A DNA stretch of 24,953 nucleotides from a virus, in IMG/VR virus record IMGVR_UViG_3300030102_002807, positions 1 to 24,953 of that record. One strand, 5' to 3'. Position 1 is the first letter of the stretch. Each line of letters starts with the position of its first letter. Shown piece by piece: positions 3,613-23,640 of this stretch. The translations under genes were made by a program, and so were the position numbers. The notes below the pieces were generated by a model that saw only the letters and a list, made by a program, of their open reading frames with translations, searched no databases and was not told the DNA's origin.

Positions 3613-5481
3613 ATGGCACTACAAAAAACAATATTCAGACCAGGTATTTATAGAGAAGGTACCGACTATGATAATGAAGGCGGTTGGTTTGATTGTAATT
3701 TGGTACGGTTTAGAAAAGGCAGGCCAGAAAAGTTTGGTGGTTGGAGTAAACTTACAAGTAATACTTATTTAGGTACGGCCAGAGCTTTACATCCTTGGGT
3801 TTCTTTAGGAGGTACAAAATACCTTGGAATAGGTACTCATCTAAAATATTATATTGAAGCTGGTGGAGTTTTTAATGATGTAACCCCCATAAGAAGTACT
3901 ACTTCTGCTGGTGATGTAACATTTTCCGCAACTAATGGAGATGCAACAATTACCGTTGCAGATACAGCCCATGGGGCAGTTCAAAATGATTTTGTTACTT
4001 TTTCTGGAGCATCTAGTTTAGGGGGTAATATAACAGCAGCCGTTTTAAATCAAGAATATCAAATAGCAACTATAGTAAATGACAATAGTTATACAATAGA
4101 AGCAAAAGACACTTCAGGAACAACGGTTACTGCAAATGCCTCTGATAGTGGCAACGGAGGATCTTCTGTTGTTGGCACCTATCAAATAAATGTGGGACTA
4201 GATGTTTATGTTGCTGGTACAGGTTGGGGTATAAATGGCTGGGGCGCAGGAACATTTGGTAGTACAAGTGCTTTAAGCCTAACGAACCAATTAAGATTAT
4301 GGACACATGATAATTTTGGAGAGGATTTAATTATAAATCCACGAGCGGGTGGTATTTATAAATGGGTAGAAAATAATGGAGTAGGCACTAGAGCAGTTGA
4401 GCTATCTGGTATTACTGGTGCCAATCAAGTTCCAACCGTAGGTCTGCAAGTTATTACTTCAGAAAAGGACAGGCACTTAATAGTCTTGGGTGCGGATCCC
4501 GTATCAGGTACTTCAAGGACAGGTACGGTTGATCCTATGTTAATAGCGTTTAGCGATCAAGAAAATGAATTGGAATTTGAACCTACTAATACAAATACAG
4601 CAGGATCTCTAAGGTTATCTTCAGGATCTTCAATAATAGGAGCTGTTAAATCAAGACAGGAAATAATGATATGGACTGATACTGCTCTTTACAGTATGCA
4701 GTTTATTGGCCCTCCATTTACCTTTGCAGTTAATTTAATTAATGAAGGTATAGGTTTAGTTGGACCCAAAGCATCCGTTACAGCACCTCAAGGCATATAT
4801 TGGATGAGCTACAATAATTTTTATGTTTACAACGGTAGTGTTCAAACTATTCCTTGTACCGTTCATAATTATGTTTTTGGTGATATTAACTTAGGACAGT
4901 CTTTTAAATTTCATGCGTTTACTATTTCAGATAAAAATGAAGTTGGATGGTTTTATTGTTCAGCTGACTCTACAGAAATAGACAGATATGTTATTTATAA
5001 CTATATAGAAAATTTATGGATTTATGGATCTCTAACAAGAACAGCTTGGTTAGATGCAGGTATTGTGAATTATCCAAGAGCTGTAAATGGAGGTTACTTA
5101 TATCAACAAGAAACTGGATTTAATGATGATGGATCCCCTATGACAAATGTGTTTATTGAAAGTTCTGATTTTGATTTAGGTGATGGTGAACAATTTACTT
5201 TTATAAGAAGGATCATTCCAGATTTTAAGTTTTTACAAAATAACAACGCAGGTAATGTAAATATAGTGGTCAAGACAAGAAACTTTCCTGGAGATTCTTT
5301 GACTACAAATTCTACAAATGCAATAACCGAAACAACTACACAAGCTTATGTAAGGGGTAGGGCAAGACAAATGGTTTTAAGGTTTGAATCTGATGATGAT
5401 GCAACCAATAATGGTAACTTGGATATTGGATGGAGATTAGGAGCTACTAGAATAGATACAAGGCCTGATGGCAAAAGATGA
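3613..5481 (+). CDS. Large phage structural protein, probable tail or head-tail junction component
   Basis: 622 residues with no signal peptide or membrane segment. The N-terminus (PGIYREGTDYDNEGGWFDCN, then LVRFRKGRPEKFGGW) has the look of a conserved structural protein of marine podovirus-like contigs, and the rest is beta-rich with many G-T-S turns and repeated aromatic W/Y strand motifs (WTDTALYSMQFIGPPF, GIYWMSYNNFYVYNG). A propeller-like fold of the P22 gp10 tail-accessory type is possible, but I see no decisive motif. An inserted threonine/glycine-rich part at about 95-195 may be a separate domain exposed on the particle. It starts immediately after the lysozyme stop and overlaps the next gene by four bases (ATGA 5478-5481). 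The position at the head of the virion block supports a structural role. Confidence 0.6.
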   Translation: MALQKTIFRPGIYREGTDYDNEGGWFDCNLVRFRKGRPEKFGGWSKLTSNTYLGTARALHPWVSLGGTKYLGIGTHLKYYIEAGGVFNDVTPIRSTTSAGDVTFSATNGDATITVADTAHGAVQNDFVTFSGASSLGGNITAAVLNQEYQIATIVNDNSYTIEAKDTSGTTVTANASDSGNGGSSVVGTYQINVGLDVYVAGTGWGINGWGAGTFGSTSALSLTNQLRLWTHDNFGEDLIINPRAGGIYKWVENNGVGTRAVELSGITGANQVPTVGLQVITSEKDRHLIVLGADPVSGTSRTGTVDPMLIAFSDQENELEFEPTNTNTAGSLRLSSGSSIIGAVKSRQEIMIWTDTALYSMQFIGPPFTFAVNLINEGIGLVGPKASVTAPQGIYWMSYNNFYVYNGSVQTIPCTVHNYVFGDINLGQSFKFHAFTISDKNEVGWFYCSADSTEIDRYVIYNYIENLWIYGSLTRTAWLDAGIVNYPRAVNGGYLYQQETGFNDDGSPMTNVFIESSDFDLGDGEQFTFIRRIIPDFKFLQNNNAGNVNIVVKTRNFPGDSLTTNSTNAITETTTQAYVRGRARQMVLRFESDDDATNNGNLDIGWRLGATRIDTRPDGKR

Positions 5482-17651: not shown

Positions 17652-18368
17652 ATGAGCTTAAAAGATAAGATAAAAACACCAGATAAAATGGTGGACCAAC
17701 AAGGGGCAAAGCTTCTTGTATATGGTCAAGCTGGAGCGGGTAAAACCTTTTCTACACAGACTATGCCAGGTAATGTTTTAGTCATTAGTGCGGAAGCTGG
17801 ATTACTATCTATTAAAGATGCTCCAAACGTATCTGCTATTGAAGTCAAAACTTATGATGATCTTAGAGAGGTGTATGCCGCTCTAGCATCTGGTGAGTTA
17901 GTCTACGATAGCGTATGTCTAGACTCAGTTTCAGAGATCTCAGAGATCTTATTGATACATGAGAAAAGCAGAAACAAAGATGGAAGAATGGCTTACCAGA
18001 ATGTAAGTGAAGCCGTTACAAGTCTTATGAGATCATTTAGGGACTTAAATACACACGTATTATTTCTTTGCAAGGAAGGTAAAGATAATAATGATGGTGT
18101 ATTTTTCTTTGGTCCTAAGATGGCAAGTAAACCTTTAGGGGATGCAATTACGTATTTCTTTGACGAGGTTTTGGCCCTACGCATTATTGACGGTCAAGAT
18201 GATGACGGTAATGCCGTAGCGGAAAGGTGGTTACAAACAAGGATAGGTCAAGGTTACACAGCGAAAGATCGTAGTGGTAAGCTTGAGGCCTTTGAGGAAC
18301 CCAATCTAACTGCCCTAATTGAGAAGTTAGGGTTTTCTATTAATATTGAAAATAAGGAGAGTGCGTAA
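17652..18368 (+). CDS. Sak4-like RecA-fold ATPase (AAA_24)
   Basis: 238 residues. Walker A is GQAGAGKT at 25-32, preceded by the strand AKLLVY; Walker B is the hydrophobic strand ending VCLDSVSEI near 90-98. The body (VLVISAEAG, THVLFLCKEG, then FFFGPKMASKPLGDAI) follows the phage AAA_24 pattern to which Sak4 single-strand annealing/recombinase ATPases belong. Sak4 proteins are short RecA-like cores that promote strand annealing together with a phage SSB. The next gene, joined by TAATG, is a DUF669 protein thought to bind ssDNA, which supports the assignment. A strong ribosome binding site and a near promoter indicate high early expression. Confidence 0.8.
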   Translation: MSLKDKIKTPDKMVDQQGAKLLVYGQAGAGKTFSTQTMPGNVLVISAEAGLLSIKDAPNVSAIEVKTYDDLREVYAALASGELVYDSVCLDSVSEISEILLIHEKSRNKDGRMAYQNVSEAVTSLMRSFRDLNTHVLFLCKEGKDNNDGVFFFGPKMASKPLGDAITYFFDEVLALRIIDGQDDDGNAVAERWLQTRIGQGYTAKDRSGKLEAFEEPNLTALIEKLGFSINIENKESA

Positions 18369-18826
18369 TGTCAGACTTTAATGACGTTGATTTTTTCGAA
18401 AATGCGGAGCAAATGGAATCTCGAGGTCCAGATGTTGCTCCAACTGGCGAGTATGAGGCTAAGATAATTGCCGCTGAGAAGTATAAAGCGGATAGCGGTA
18501 ATTGGACTCAGAAAATAACCTTTCAGATTGATGGTGGTAAATATCGCGATCATAATGAATGGTATAACCTTTGGTCTGCTAATAAAGAATCCAAAAGAAT
18601 AGCGAGTGAGATATTTAGTCGTCTTGCTATTGTTGTTGGATTTAAGAAGCTACCAGATCTTGCAAAAGATTTTATCGGTAAGCAACTTAGACTTGGTATC
18701 AGACAGTATGAAGATACTTGGACAAACAAAGAAGGTGAACAAGTTACATCTAATAAGACTAAAATCATTAAGATGGAACCGTCAGAGATGGCACCAACAC
18801 CAGTAGGTGAAAAACCTCCCTTCTAA
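18368..18826 (+). CDS. DUF669 single-stranded DNA-binding-like protein
   Basis: 152 residues. The pattern fits DUF669: an acidic start (DFNDVDFF), PTGEYEAKIIAAE near 26-38, ITFQIDGGKYRDHNEWYNLW near 50-69, a helix with ASEIFSRLAIVVGF, then LRLGIRQYEDTWTNKEGEQV. The protein probably has an OB-like beta core and coats ssDNA. It ends in a Pro-rich KPPF tail; bacterial SSBs end in an acidic D-x-x-P-F tip, so the final Phe could have a similar partner-docking role, but the acidic residues are missing. It is coupled to the Sak4-like gene by a one-base TAATG overlap and followed after 11 bases by a strong terminator. Confidence 0.75.
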   Translation: MSDFNDVDFFENAEQMESRGPDVAPTGEYEAKIIAAEKYKADSGNWTQKITFQIDGGKYRDHNEWYNLWSANKESKRIASEIFSRLAIVVGFKKLPDLAKDFIGKQLRLGIRQYEDTWTNKEGEQVTSNKTKIIKMEPSEMAPTPVGEKPPF

Positions 18827-19270: not shown

Positions 19271-19488
19271 TTTGTCCTCCAAACTCTGAATTTATCATCT
19301 TCAACTTGTCTAATTTTAACTTTTAATCCAGCTGCATTAGCTAAGTTATACCAGTTATCAACACCATTACGTTGTCCTTTTTCTGTTGTAAATATAAATG
19401 AATCGCCTATGTCTAAACTTAAAAGAAATGCCGTTTTGCCCTTTACCCTTTTTCTAGGTATCGGTACATTTTTCTCTACTTTATACAT
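19267..19488 (-). CDS. Conserved small phage protein, unknown function
   Basis: 73 residues. The N-terminus NVPIPRKRVKGKTAFLLSLD, then IGDSFIF, and the C-terminal VKIRQVEDDKFRVWRTK follow a pattern common in small phage proteins of unknown function: a short V-P-I-P-R-K lead, G-D-S-F strand, a helix with A-N-A-A-G, and a final R-V-W-R strand. The fold may be a small alpha/beta domain. It overlaps the exonuclease stop by TAATG and the DUF3310 start by ATGA, so three genes are translated as a chain. Confidence 0.65.
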   Translation of the reverse strand: MYKVEKNVPIPRKRVKGKTAFLLSLDIGDSFIFTTEKGQRNGVDNWYNLANAAGLKVKIRQVEDDKFRVWRTK

Positions 19489-20366
19489 TACTCTTCCATC
19501 CAGCCCTTTAGATCTACGTTAACTATATTAGGTGAGTTGTATATGGTGGCTTCTTTACCGTTTAATACTGCGTTGTATTCTCCAAGCAAATGCTCCAGTT
19601 TTAACCAGCCAGATGTCATGTCTTCATGTTTCATCTTGAAGATCTTACTTGCAAACGGTTTCTTCTTTTCTTGTGCTACAAAGATAAAGTCAACCACGTT
19701 GAACCCAGCTTTCTCATATCCACGTTTATACCAAGCGGCTTGTAATTCGTATTGGTACTTCTTAATGGATGATGTAAAGCCCCTAACAGAACAATCGGTA
19801 GTAGTCTTATAATCAACCAAGATTATAGATTTAGGGTCGCTAGATATATCTAATGGGTATCTAAGCACATCAGATTTAACTTTCAGCAATAGATCCTTTT
19901 CCCACCAAAAGATCGCTCTTTCAAATGGAGAGTTAAATACTTCTGGGTATTCGCCTTGTACTGCTGACAAATGCTTGTGTCCTTCCGGTATCAAGGCTTC
20001 TCGCATACTGTATAAGGTTTCTTTGTCCTTAGATGAGATAACGGTTAGCCCTCTATCTTCATACTCCTTCTTTAGCTCTTTATTAGCGTTGGTGTATGGA
20101 GATCCACTTAGGCAGACTACATCATTAACAAAGGCCTCTTCTCCCTCAACAATCAAAGAATGTGCGGCGGTCCCAAACTTCATAGCTGGTGTCGTTTCGT
20201 TTTCTTCTTCAAATGCATGGAGTTGGCTTTGTCCAAACCTTCTTATGTTTGATGATGATATGCCTGGAGCTTCATGATAAAAGTTATGTTCCATATCTGG
20301 AAAGTAAACTGCGTCTCCCAAGATTACGTGTTCTTGGTTTTCTAATATTTCTGGTAGTTCGTTCAT
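19488..20366 (-). CDS. ExoVIII/RecE-like PD-(D/E)XK exonuclease (DUF3799-like)
   Basis: 292 residues. Motifs of the RecE/lambda-exonuclease type are visible in order: G65-T-A-A-H69 (first helix histidine), D166 in KVKSDVL, D185-Y-K187 in ILVDYKTTT (the D-E-x-K strand), and Q205/Q209 in YQYELQAAWY (the Q-x-x-x-Y-like helix). The enzyme should resect double-stranded ends 5' to 3', leaving 3' single strands for annealing. Its natural partners, a Sak4-like ATPase and a DUF669 protein, are encoded 1.1 kb away on the other strand. A good ribosome binding site (AAGGAG, five bases before the ATG) supports the start. The N-terminal 35 residues are variable in this family. Confidence 0.82.
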   Translation of the reverse strand: MNELPEILENQEHVILGDAVYFPDMEHNFYHEAPGISSSNIRRFGQSQLHAFEEENETTPAMKFGTAAHSLIVEGEEAFVNDVVCLSGSPYTNANKELKKEYEDRGLTVISSKDKETLYSMREALIPEGHKHLSAVQGEYPEVFNSPFERAIFWWEKDLLLKVKSDVLRYPLDISSDPKSIILVDYKTTTDCSVRGFTSSIKKYQYELQAAWYKRGYEKAGFNVVDFIFVAQEKKKPFASKIFKMKHEDMTSGWLKLEHLLGEYNAVLNGKEATIYNSPNIVNVDLKGWMEE

Positions 20367-22437: not shown

Positions 22438-22572
22438 CAATCTTTTCATGCTATCAACATAACTCATAGCAAAAAGTTTCCAACTTTCAGGTTTATACCC
22501 TTTGTTCTTTGCAATCTTTAAGCCCTCTTCGTACCATCTTATATCTTGTTTTATTTGTTTTGCGTAATTCAT
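22414..22572 (-). CDS. Small helical phage protein (52 residues)
   Basis: A 52-residue frame, MNYAKQIKQDIRWYEEGLKI then AKNKGYKPESWKLF, ending KDYEKQS. It is charged and helical with several Trp and Tyr residues; no family is recognised. Its ATG overlaps the stop of the zinc-ribbon gene upstream (TAATG at 22572). The last 24 bases match the last 24 bases of that upstream gene at 22 positions, so both proteins end in K-D-Y-x-x-Q-S. Codon use and coupling make it likely to be real. Confidence 0.6.
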   Translation of the reverse strand: MNYAKQIKQDIRWYEEGLKIAKNKGYKPESWKLFAMSYVDSMKRLKDYEKQS

Positions 22573-22595
22573 TAGCTTTGTCTCTTATAGTCTTT
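22572..22595. repeat. Gene-end repeat, copy 2
   Basis: TTAGCTTTGTCTCTTATAGT followed by CTTT, covering the stop codon and last seven codons of the 57-residue zinc-ribbon gene. The third gene (22745-22882) ends with a looser version of the same lysine-rich sequence before TAATG. Confidence 0.75.
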
Positions 22596-22745
22596 GTAAA
22601 AAAGTTCTATCTCGTCAGGTCTTGAATCAGAACATTCATCTTCTGTCATTTTGCATATAGGACAAGATAGAGTTATTGATTTTTTATGAATATAGTTTAG
22701 ATCACAATCACAATCCCAATAATTAGGGTCGGTTACAACTATCAT
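22572..22745 (-). CDS. Small zinc-ribbon protein, CxC...CxxC type (57 residues)
   Basis: The frame begins MIVVTDPNYWDCDCDLNYIH and continues with LSCPICKMTEDECSDSRPDE. The C-x-C and C-x-x-C pairs, the N-Y-I-H between them, and the following D-S-R-x-x-E are a pattern I know from small proteins of marine phages (Cys-based zinc ribbon, function unknown). Such proteins may act as early host-takeover factors or nucleic-acid adaptors; that is inference. It is coupled to both neighbours by one-base TAATG overlaps. Confidence 0.7.
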   Translation of the reverse strand: MIVVTDPNYWDCDCDLNYIHKKSITLSCPICKMTEDECSDSRPDEIELFYKDYKRQS

Positions 22746-22882
22746 TAGCTTTTCTCCTTATCTTTACGGTTCTTATAAGCCTGTAGTTTGATCTTCCACC
22801 TTTTAGGTAAACTACGTTTCCTTTCAGGGTGCATACTGTCAGGGTCTTGTTCCCATTCTTTATAAGCCTTTGTTAAATCCAT
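22745..22882 (-). CDS. Small basic phage protein (45 residues)
   Basis: The frame reads MDLTKAYKEWEQDPDSMHPE, then RKRSLPKRWKIKLQAYKNRK and DKEKS. AGGAG seven bases before the ATG supports the start. It is strongly basic in the second half, so it may bind nucleic acid or an acidic partner; no family is recognised. Its stop overlaps the ATG of the zinc-ribbon gene as TAATG. Confidence 0.6.
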   Translation of the reverse strand: MDLTKAYKEWEQDPDSMHPERKRSLPKRWKIKLQAYKNRKDKEKS

Positions 22883-22892
22883 AACGGTTCTC

Positions 22893-23039
22893 CTATTTAT
22901 TTATGAGCCAGGTTTCAAAACGAATCCAAGCCTCTTTGCCTAAGTAAAACGGTATAACAAATATAACTATACTTAAACATAAGAGGCCTATCGTTGAGAA
23001 GAATATAACGTCTTGAATAGCTCTAAGGTTATTCTTCAT
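22893..23039 (-). CDS. Small single-span membrane protein (48 residues)
   Basis: A transmembrane helix is clear at about 11-33 (VIFFSTIGLLCLSIVIFVIP, then FYL), with MKNNLRAIQD before it and a charged tail GKEAWIRFETWLINK after. By the positive-inside rule either end could be cytoplasmic. The start overlaps the upstream stop as ATGA (23036-23039). Small membrane proteins of early phage regions may block superinfection or alter the host envelope; here only the topology is visible. Confidence 0.65.
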   Translation of the reverse strand: MKNNLRAIQDVIFFSTIGLLCLSIVIFVIPFYLGKEAWIRFETWLINK

Positions 23040-23275
23040 GATCCTATTCCTTTTTCTACTTCACTAACTGCCTCTTCAACATCAGCTATAAAACAATCAA
23101 GAGTAAAAGTGTTGTTGCCTGTTGCAATACTTTCTATTAATCCATTTAACTGTCTTAGTGCTTCTTGCTCGTCAGTCAATTCCTCTTTCATGTTATACAA
23201 ATTCCAGTCAAAATCTCCTTCTCTAACTTTGGTATTGTTTAAAAACTTTTCTGTAAATCTACTTATTGATTTCAT
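23036..23275 (-). CDS. Small acidic phage protein (79 residues), unknown function
   Basis: ATG 23275 is preferred over the longer in-frame start at 23308, because GGGAG lies seven bases upstream and the same start cassette precedes the next gene. The protein begins MKSISRFTEKFLNNTKVREG, has an acidic helix (MKEELTDEQEALRQLNGLIE) and a C-terminal helix (CFIADVEEAVSEVEKGIGS). No family is recognised. It overlaps the upstream gene by 17 bases. Confidence 0.6.
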   Translation of the reverse strand: MKSISRFTEKFLNNTKVREGDFDWNLYNMKEELTDEQEALRQLNGLIESIATGNNTFTLDCFIADVEEAVSEVEKGIGS

Positions 23276-23504
23276 TATCGGACTCCCAAGTTGTATCTTT
23301 CCAATCAAGATCTTTTTCTAGGTTATATGCTAGCCAAAGAATATCTTTCCATATTTTTTCAGGGCGGTAACGTTTATAACTAGAATGATCGGTTACAAAT
23401 TTATATATTTTAGTCTTGCCCCAATCCTCTGCATCTGCTGGTAAATTTTTATGTAGGAAAAAAGAGCCAGCATAAATAACAAAATCAAAATTAAGTTTTT
23501 TCAT
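23259..23504 (-). CDS. Small phage protein (81 residues), unknown function
   Basis: ATG 23504 follows AAGGAG with seven bases between and is preferred over the longer frame starting at 23537. The protein begins MKKLNFDFVIYAGSFFLHKN, then has EDWGKTKIYKFVTDHSSYKR and a Trp-rich end (IWKDILWLAYNLEKDLDWKD). It is mixed alpha/beta and rich in aromatic residues; no family is recognised. It overlaps the 49-residue zinc-ribbon gene upstream by 14 bases. Confidence 0.6.
   Translation of the reverse strand: MKKLNFDFVIYAGSFFLHKNLPADAEDWGKTKIYKFVTDHSSYKRYRPEKIWKDILWLAYNLEKDLDWKDTTWESDNEINK
23270..23286. repeat. Translation-start repeat, copy 1
   Basis: GGAGTCCGATAATGAAA (- strand) contains the ribosome binding site, spacer, start codon and second codon of the 79-residue gene and is identical to 23499-23515. 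At the same time it encodes S-D-N-E in the upstream gene's C-terminus. Confidence 0.85.
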
Positions 23505-23640
23505 TATCGGACTCCTTACATTTGGGACATTCAACATCAGAGCCAGCTACAAATAAGTTATCAAAGATAAACTTCTTTGGCTCTGTTATATCTTGTGGTT
23601 TTTCTATTTCAGTTCCACACTCTGCGCACATATACCGCAT
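23491..23640 (-). CDS. Small zinc-ribbon protein (49 residues)
   Basis: The frame begins MRYMCAECGTEIEKPQDITE and ends VECPKCKESDNEKT. Two C-x-x-C knuckles, 30 residues apart (C5/C8 and C38/C41), make a rubredoxin-like zinc ribbon. The loop between them has KKFIFDNLFVAG. Start and stop overlap neighbours (TAATG at 23640; 14 bases at the end). Function unknown. Confidence 0.7.
   Translation of the reverse strand: MRYMCAECGTEIEKPQDITEPKKFIFDNLFVAGSDVECPKCKESDNEKT
23499..23515. repeat. Translation-start repeat, copy 2
   Basis: GGAGTCCGATAATGAAA (- strand), identical over 17 bases to 23270-23286. It starts the 81-residue gene and, in the overlapping frame, also encodes E-S-D-N-E of the 49-residue zinc-ribbon protein. 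Confidence 0.85.

Follow-up and report, generated by a model that had tools for sequence, protein, structure and literature searches.

Among the phage systems closest to the one considered here are the Start Associated Sequences (SAS, ESAS) of cluster K mycobacteriophages and of Microbacterium phages of cluster EF (PMC3203893, PMC12699233, PMC7302621), the short conserved boundary sequences proposed for lambdoid mosaicism (Susskind & Botstein 1978; Clark et al. 2001, cited in PMC3029335), the nin region of phage lambda, presented as a chain of interlinked genes (Kroger & Hobom 1982, as a citation; described in PMC8022706), and PeSL, the mobile regulatory cassettes of T4-type phages (Arbiol 2010, as cited in PMC4503421). 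The stretch analysed here, IMG/VR virus record IMGVR_UViG_3300030102_002807 (positions 1 to 24,953; the whole of these 24,953 nucleotides is referred to as the window), carries an array of small genes in which one short sequence is repeated at two joints. This element, the 15-base GGAGTCCGAYAATGA, is likely a stop-start connector of the array, called the alpha linker below, which would allow units to be exchanged linker to linker. Its recurrence in a preferred frame, breakpoints at its edges, clean insertions and losses of units, runs of connectors of like type and conserved types at gene heads and tails are all found in the relatives.

A stop-start connector and its reading frame

A sequence-only reading of the window had pointed to an identical 17-base cassette at the starts of two adjacent, unrelated genes. 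Indeed, GGAGTCCGATAATGAAA occurs in the window exactly twice, both times on the minus strand (Table 1); no third match is found there even with up to three mismatches, and two or more matches were seen in none of 100 shuffles (mean 0.06). Both copies are gene starts within a tightly packed minus-strand array of genes of 45–144 aa. Each contains GGAG plus the ATG AAA of the downstream gene (B or C) and, as had also been noticed, codes part of the upstream protein, namely ESDNE at the overlapping end of gene A (...CKESDNEKT) or gene B (...TWESDNEINK). The genes behind the two copies, B and C, belong to different protein families (F27 and F28). Only the length needs correction: the 17 bases are exact in the window, while the unit conserved across relatives has 15, the last two A's being the downstream gene's own second codon, which is not conserved there.

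Relatives were gathered in three ways: an exact 17-mer scan of IMG/VR gave five contigs, L001, L002 and L005 being close to the window and L003 and L004 unrelated and looking like chance matches; protein searches with four window genes gave loci L008–L125; and a scan with GGAGTCCGAYAATGA gave at least 119 stretches. Genes were called by a simple script, and families are single-linkage BLAST groups. The resulting 237 sequences, the window included, contain 177 distinct linker contexts when up to two mismatches are allowed and each context is counted once; 142 are exact. In the related uncultured phage contigs up to six linkers are present per contig or array, before unrelated small genes in varying orders. 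Of 25 whole records 24 contained linker matches, which never lay on both strands of a record; the reversed pattern was absent from all 25. That the two window copies are two good ribosome-binding sites identical by chance, or arose by a recent duplication, would fit a window with two copies only, but has a negligible probability in view of the shuffles, of the unrelated genes behind the linkers and of the 161 instances of repeated start 14-mers within single contigs, where a control position 30 bases upstream gave 9 (loci overlapping on one contig were left in this count).

Among 100 contexts from multi-copy contigs, 11 of the 15 core positions are conserved at 97% or more and three others at 92% or more, GGAG and the start codon having been required by the search. 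Of the 164 contexts that have an upstream reading frame, 134 have the upstream gene in the GAG frame, which usually gives it a C-terminal ESDNE tail; the stop of this gene lies mostly at linker position +16 (55 contexts) or +19 (50), together 105/164, i.e., 5–8 bases past the start codon; the frame with a stop inside the linker is used in 16/164. Counted by family, upstream genes read through the linker in 65 of 90 families. This constancy of frame could indicate selection on the shared C-terminal peptide, ESDNE or another acidic or polar tail serving for example as a binding or stability tag, the identity of the DNA being secondary; several other connector types, listed below, likewise yield charged or polar tails (EKS, EQN, ENEDE, EVSDE). 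Such selection is nevertheless improbable, since the tails vary with the connector type and each base of the TCC serine codon is kept in 92–97 of the 100 multi-copy-contig contexts, although other serine codons would serve; moreover, the GAG frame would be a natural one for a Shine-Dalgarno site placed inside a coding end. A preference for AAG GAG as coding sequence, relative to other frames, could add to the bias.

Exchange of genes at the connector

The tail of gene A with its linker is kept while the next gene differs in the window, L001, L008, L010, L018, L030 and L044, and gene B, through the linker, precedes different genes in the window, L027/L103, L104 and L114. At the base level, the gene that follows A and its linker is B in the window, D in L018 and E in L030, and the one that follows B and its linker is C in the window and E in L027. 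The 154 junctions scored on both sides, a set that includes some chance matches, represent 142 distinct pairs of upstream and downstream families, and at least two partners are found for 30 of 83 upstream and 28 of 78 downstream families. When the upstream gene is the same and the downstream one differs, 86 of 147 pairs can be aligned without gaps; their identity is about 0.9 up to the linker, 0.94 at +10 to +14 and 0.37 at +15 to +19, falling at once to background beyond the linker. The mirror pairs (same downstream, different upstream gene) give the reverse pattern in 133 of 206 cases.

Eighteen distinct cases were found in which one or several genes were inserted or lost from linker to linker, with both flanks at least 90% identical. 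For example, a 290-nt unit present in L147 is absent from L104 and L225, the 33 bases before the linker and the bases after it matching across all three. This is the gain and loss of genes exactly at the cassette that the sequence-only reading proposed to look for in relatives, and the opposite outcome, relatives with the same genes lacking the cassette, is not the rule, though some orthologues are without a linker. In these arrays single-gene units with a common bounding sequence are thus gained and lost individually. Arrayed single-gene units, a shared end sequence and clean insertion and loss are also what a site-specific recombinase or an integron-like system moving the units would produce; such a system is very improbable here, because the repeat overlaps coding sequence and has no paired inverted core sites (judged by eye), and the 20 proteins of the window, itself a fragment, that were scanned against PHROGs included no such integrase or recombinase.

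Preference for the linkers was assessed on contigs fetched by protein alone (106 after removing contig repeats). The mean fraction of high-scoring segment pairs ending at a site is 0.85 for linkers (38 of 45 sites informative), 0.66 for other same-strand starts up to 1.5 kb away (107 of 119) and 0.32 for distant starts (168 of 186), with p = 6e-4 for linkers against nearby starts. The distant non-linker starts include structural genes, and therefore starts inside the arrays were used as an added control: where the upstream flank is at least 85% identical, the downstream partner differs in 276 of 360 linker pairs and in 32 of 66 non-linker pairs from the same arrays, a smaller contrast than with the distant starts. 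The linkers are thus favoured as joints, while the region varies at other joints as well. Because sister samples contribute near-identical contigs, which raise the pair counts, distinct events were counted as well. Assembly error is an unlikely explanation of the exchange pattern, since the same linker context is found in contigs from different data sets (L134/L151; L002/L005). It is also worth mentioning that contig L104 begins five bases ahead of a linker (positions 1–5), as if the assembly broke where unit content diverges.

Several observations weigh against an exchange joint at the linker. The whole region is hypervariable, as the switching of partners at non-linker starts attests, and the mirror switching test gives a weak contrast (298/385 linkers versus 65/93 non-linkers). 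At some linkers homology extends across to both sides (e.g., in L020, L047 and L048), and 58 of 138 families with at least three members occur both with and without a linker. In the window itself the C/D joint, the right joint of the B–C block, has no intact linker, unlike that of the identical D gene in L018/L031, which carries the exact sequence. Part of the contig set was picked by the linker itself, with some single matches due to chance (e.g., L003, L004). Since homology between genes naturally stops close to start and stop codons, a crossover in the linker is not proved by sharp edges alone, and what is seen here are the products of a presumed recombination.

Connector types and a possible mechanism of exchange

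Besides the alpha linker four connector types were distinguished, GAGAAAAGCTAATG and GAGCAAAACTAATG (the TAATG types), GGAGGTGTCAGATG and GGAGAACGAAGATG; TAATG types are also present in the window, where the proteins upstream of the two second-type connectors end in EKS and RQS. A stop in the GAG frame within nine bases is found in 206 of 266 alpha, delta and epsilon linker heads versus 329 of 956 other ATG heads; the head of a unit thus closes whichever gene precedes it. In L114 and L204 a TAATG run, an alpha run and a second TAATG run follow one another within one operon. Of 215 pairs of neighbouring linkers in 43 mixed contigs, 145 are of the same type; over 5000 shuffles the mean was 75.8 and the highest value 97. 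Two members of a family have the same head type in 807 of 930 pairs and the same tail type in 964 of 1124, against a background of about 0.37 (the beta and gamma connectors, being alike, were merged for this test), which is what units with typed ends would give. Families F40 (6/6 contigs) and F80 (4/4) combine a TAATG head with an alpha tail and are located where the run changes, and in the family of gene E (F0) a TAATG-type tail is common (32 of 41 scored tails).

Several side observations concern these arrays. In L109 (791–1989) and L110 (4757–5955) there are arrays with five copies each of GGAGGTGTCAGATG as a repeated start, whose upstream proteins end in EVSD-like tails and which include a homologue of gene C. 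On the minus strand of L204 two members of one small-gene family (MAKQEMIEDI..., MNKQEMIDEV...), starting at 1612 and 1954, are found in the same array. A DUF3310 gene (PF11753; L114, 2511–2921, and homologues) often stands at the end of the alpha run, with conserved genes after it, and behaves like a fixed anchor.

The same element might be a translational control element comparable to SAS, its spacer fixed by a host or phage factor or by a strict geometry of termination and reinitiation; genes would then be swapped at their borders by illegitimate or long-homology recombination, and selection would keep or restore the element. In favour of this are the ribosome-binding site and start within the linker, the high conservation of its core, the upstream stop just past the start codon, which fits coupling, and the homologues of gene C in L109, which carry another repeated start (in L107–L125, too, homologues of gene C have start contexts other than the alpha linker). 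Several connector types with different spacers coexist in runs within one operon, though, and the types follow the gene units; clean single-unit insertions and losses that start and finish inside linkers would also be left unexplained by a regulator alone. On balance we regard a purely translational element as unlikely. A translational role is nonetheless built in, since the linker is a ribosome-binding site and a start; it probably stands alongside the role in exchange, the two being compatible. A role of the GAGTC of the linker in methylation (GANTC, a CcrM-type site) was also considered and dropped, because GANTC counts are close to or lower than expected in three of four sequences (in the window 60 versus 85 expected; L114 is above, with 25 versus 17) and the other connector types are without GANTC.

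Returning to an exchange joint, many unrelated units share the connector at head and tail in one frame, so a crossover inside it would join any two of them with neither gene broken. In mixed populations units might thus be inserted, lost or replaced linker to linker, the joints forming by homologous or annealing recombination at the shared 14–15 bases. The Sak4-like, single-strand-binding and exonuclease VIII-like genes of the window make annealing at short identities plausible and could be the set involved. In the experiments described in PMC3945230, phage recombination was tested at regions with longest perfect identities of 116, 41 and 11 bp, in dependence on Redbeta and RecA, which is a recombinase family different from Sak4. 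Upkeep of the linker may be due to its translational use combined with the benefit of matching other linkers. The suggestion of the sequence-only reading that the cassette is a movable linker is therefore largely right as regards the exchange of genes at it, given its recurrence, the breakpoints, the linker-to-linker insertions and losses and the typed runs; homologous recombination as the maker of the joints, which it also invoked, we infer from those joints.

These arrays may further reflect a population-wide, domino-like code of gene trading, to which we give about an even chance. Small early genes would travel singly with typed heads and tails (alpha with ESDNE, TAATG with EKS or EQN, and others), same-type units would build runs, adaptor genes with unlike ends would join the runs into an ordered operon, and the annealing recombinase of the phages themselves would shuffle the units at 14–15 bases of identity. 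If true, the code would amount to an integron-like system without a site-specific recombinase, the connector doubling as translation start and stop. The array can also be considered a catalogue of small accessory phage proteins traded one at a time, and since an identical sequence is present at many joints and related contigs differ by one unit, the question is testable by defined mutation.

Table 1. Positions in the window of the candidate recombination genes, the small genes and the connectors discussed in the text.
Feature	Position	Strand	Remarks
Sak4-like ssDNA annealing protein, candidate recombinase	17652..18368	+	phrog_124, E 1.1e-44
Single-strand DNA binding protein	18368..18826	+	phrog_378, E 8.4e-15
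Exonuclease VIII-like protein	19488..20366	-	phrog_412, E 8.3e-47
Second connector type, variant GAGACAAAGCTAATG	22570..22584	-	at start of 52-aa gene 22572-22414
Second connector type GGAGAAAAGCTAATG (TAATG)	22743..22757	-	at start of 57-aa gene 22745-22572
Gene E	22745..22882	-	45 aa, ends EKS*
Gene D	22893..23039	-	48 aa, hydrophobic stretch (by eye)
C/D joint GGAATAGGATCATG	23037..23050	-	no intact linker
Gene C	23036..23275	-	79 aa, no family found, linker-headed unit; ATG 23275
Alpha linker copy 2, B/C joint	23270..23286	-	core 23272-23286; compared with L027
Gene B	23259..23504	-	81 aa, no family found, C-terminal ESDNEINK, linker-headed unit; ATG 23504
Alpha linker copy 1, A/B joint, GGAGTCCGATAATGAAA	23499..23515	-	core GGAGTCCGATAATGA = 23501-23515; base-level comparison with L018, L030
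Gene A	23491..23640	-	49 aa, zinc-ribbon-like (below Pfam cut-off), C-terminal ESDNEKT

As to the wider relations of the window, it has no nucleotide match among phages, and no match to its 1117-aa protein or to gene C was found among named relatives. Its primase has 239 distant matches, all below 60% identity, and its terminase-like protein matches solely Pelagibacter phage HTVC027P (34.5%) and contig L239 (79%, at 5001–5471), a 53-kb contig binned in a Gammaproteobacteria metagenome-assembled genome. L239 is possibly a phage contig and gives a weak hint at the host; the connectors described here were not found in the 10 kb of it examined.

Comparison with known systems

No report of this linker was found in the literature searched. 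Like SAS as described in the papers cited above, it is short and asymmetric and recurs, mostly in one orientation, at the ribosome-binding position of numerous small non-structural genes from different families. By direct comparison, however, GGAGTCCGAYAATGA shares with the SAS consensus GGGATAGGAGCCC just the GGAG core and the C's that follow. The 16 SAS sites of phage Anaya lie before the start codon at a variable distance, whereas the linker keeps a fixed distance, takes in the start codon and encodes the upstream gene's end. In the passages cited SAS is treated as regulatory and not as an exchange joint. Several connector types coexist in the phages studied here.

The arrays share with the lambda nin region packed small early genes with overlapping stops and starts. 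The overlaps there are ATGA motifs according to the description in PMC8022706, whereas the linker stop lies mostly 5–8 bases past the start codon. In a comparison by eye of the start regions of eleven lambda genes from P to Q, no common sequence was found beyond a purine-rich site. PeSL, as cited, is likewise a repeated regulatory element proposed to mediate gene shuffling. The linker, a ribosome-binding site with a start codon, is situated inside coding overlaps. PeSL, in contrast, reportedly consists of a promoter and a stem-loop in intergenic DNA.

The closest mechanism, as far as the cited accounts describe it, is that of the lambdoid boundary sequences, for which homologous recombination was proposed at short shared sequences at the borders of genes or modules. 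The linker, too, is a short shared sequence placed exactly at mosaic joints; here, one exact sequence is found at many joints, there are several types, and the scale is that of single genes. The linker thus differs from both of the closest known systems, SAS and the lambdoid boundary sequences, fitting neither fully.
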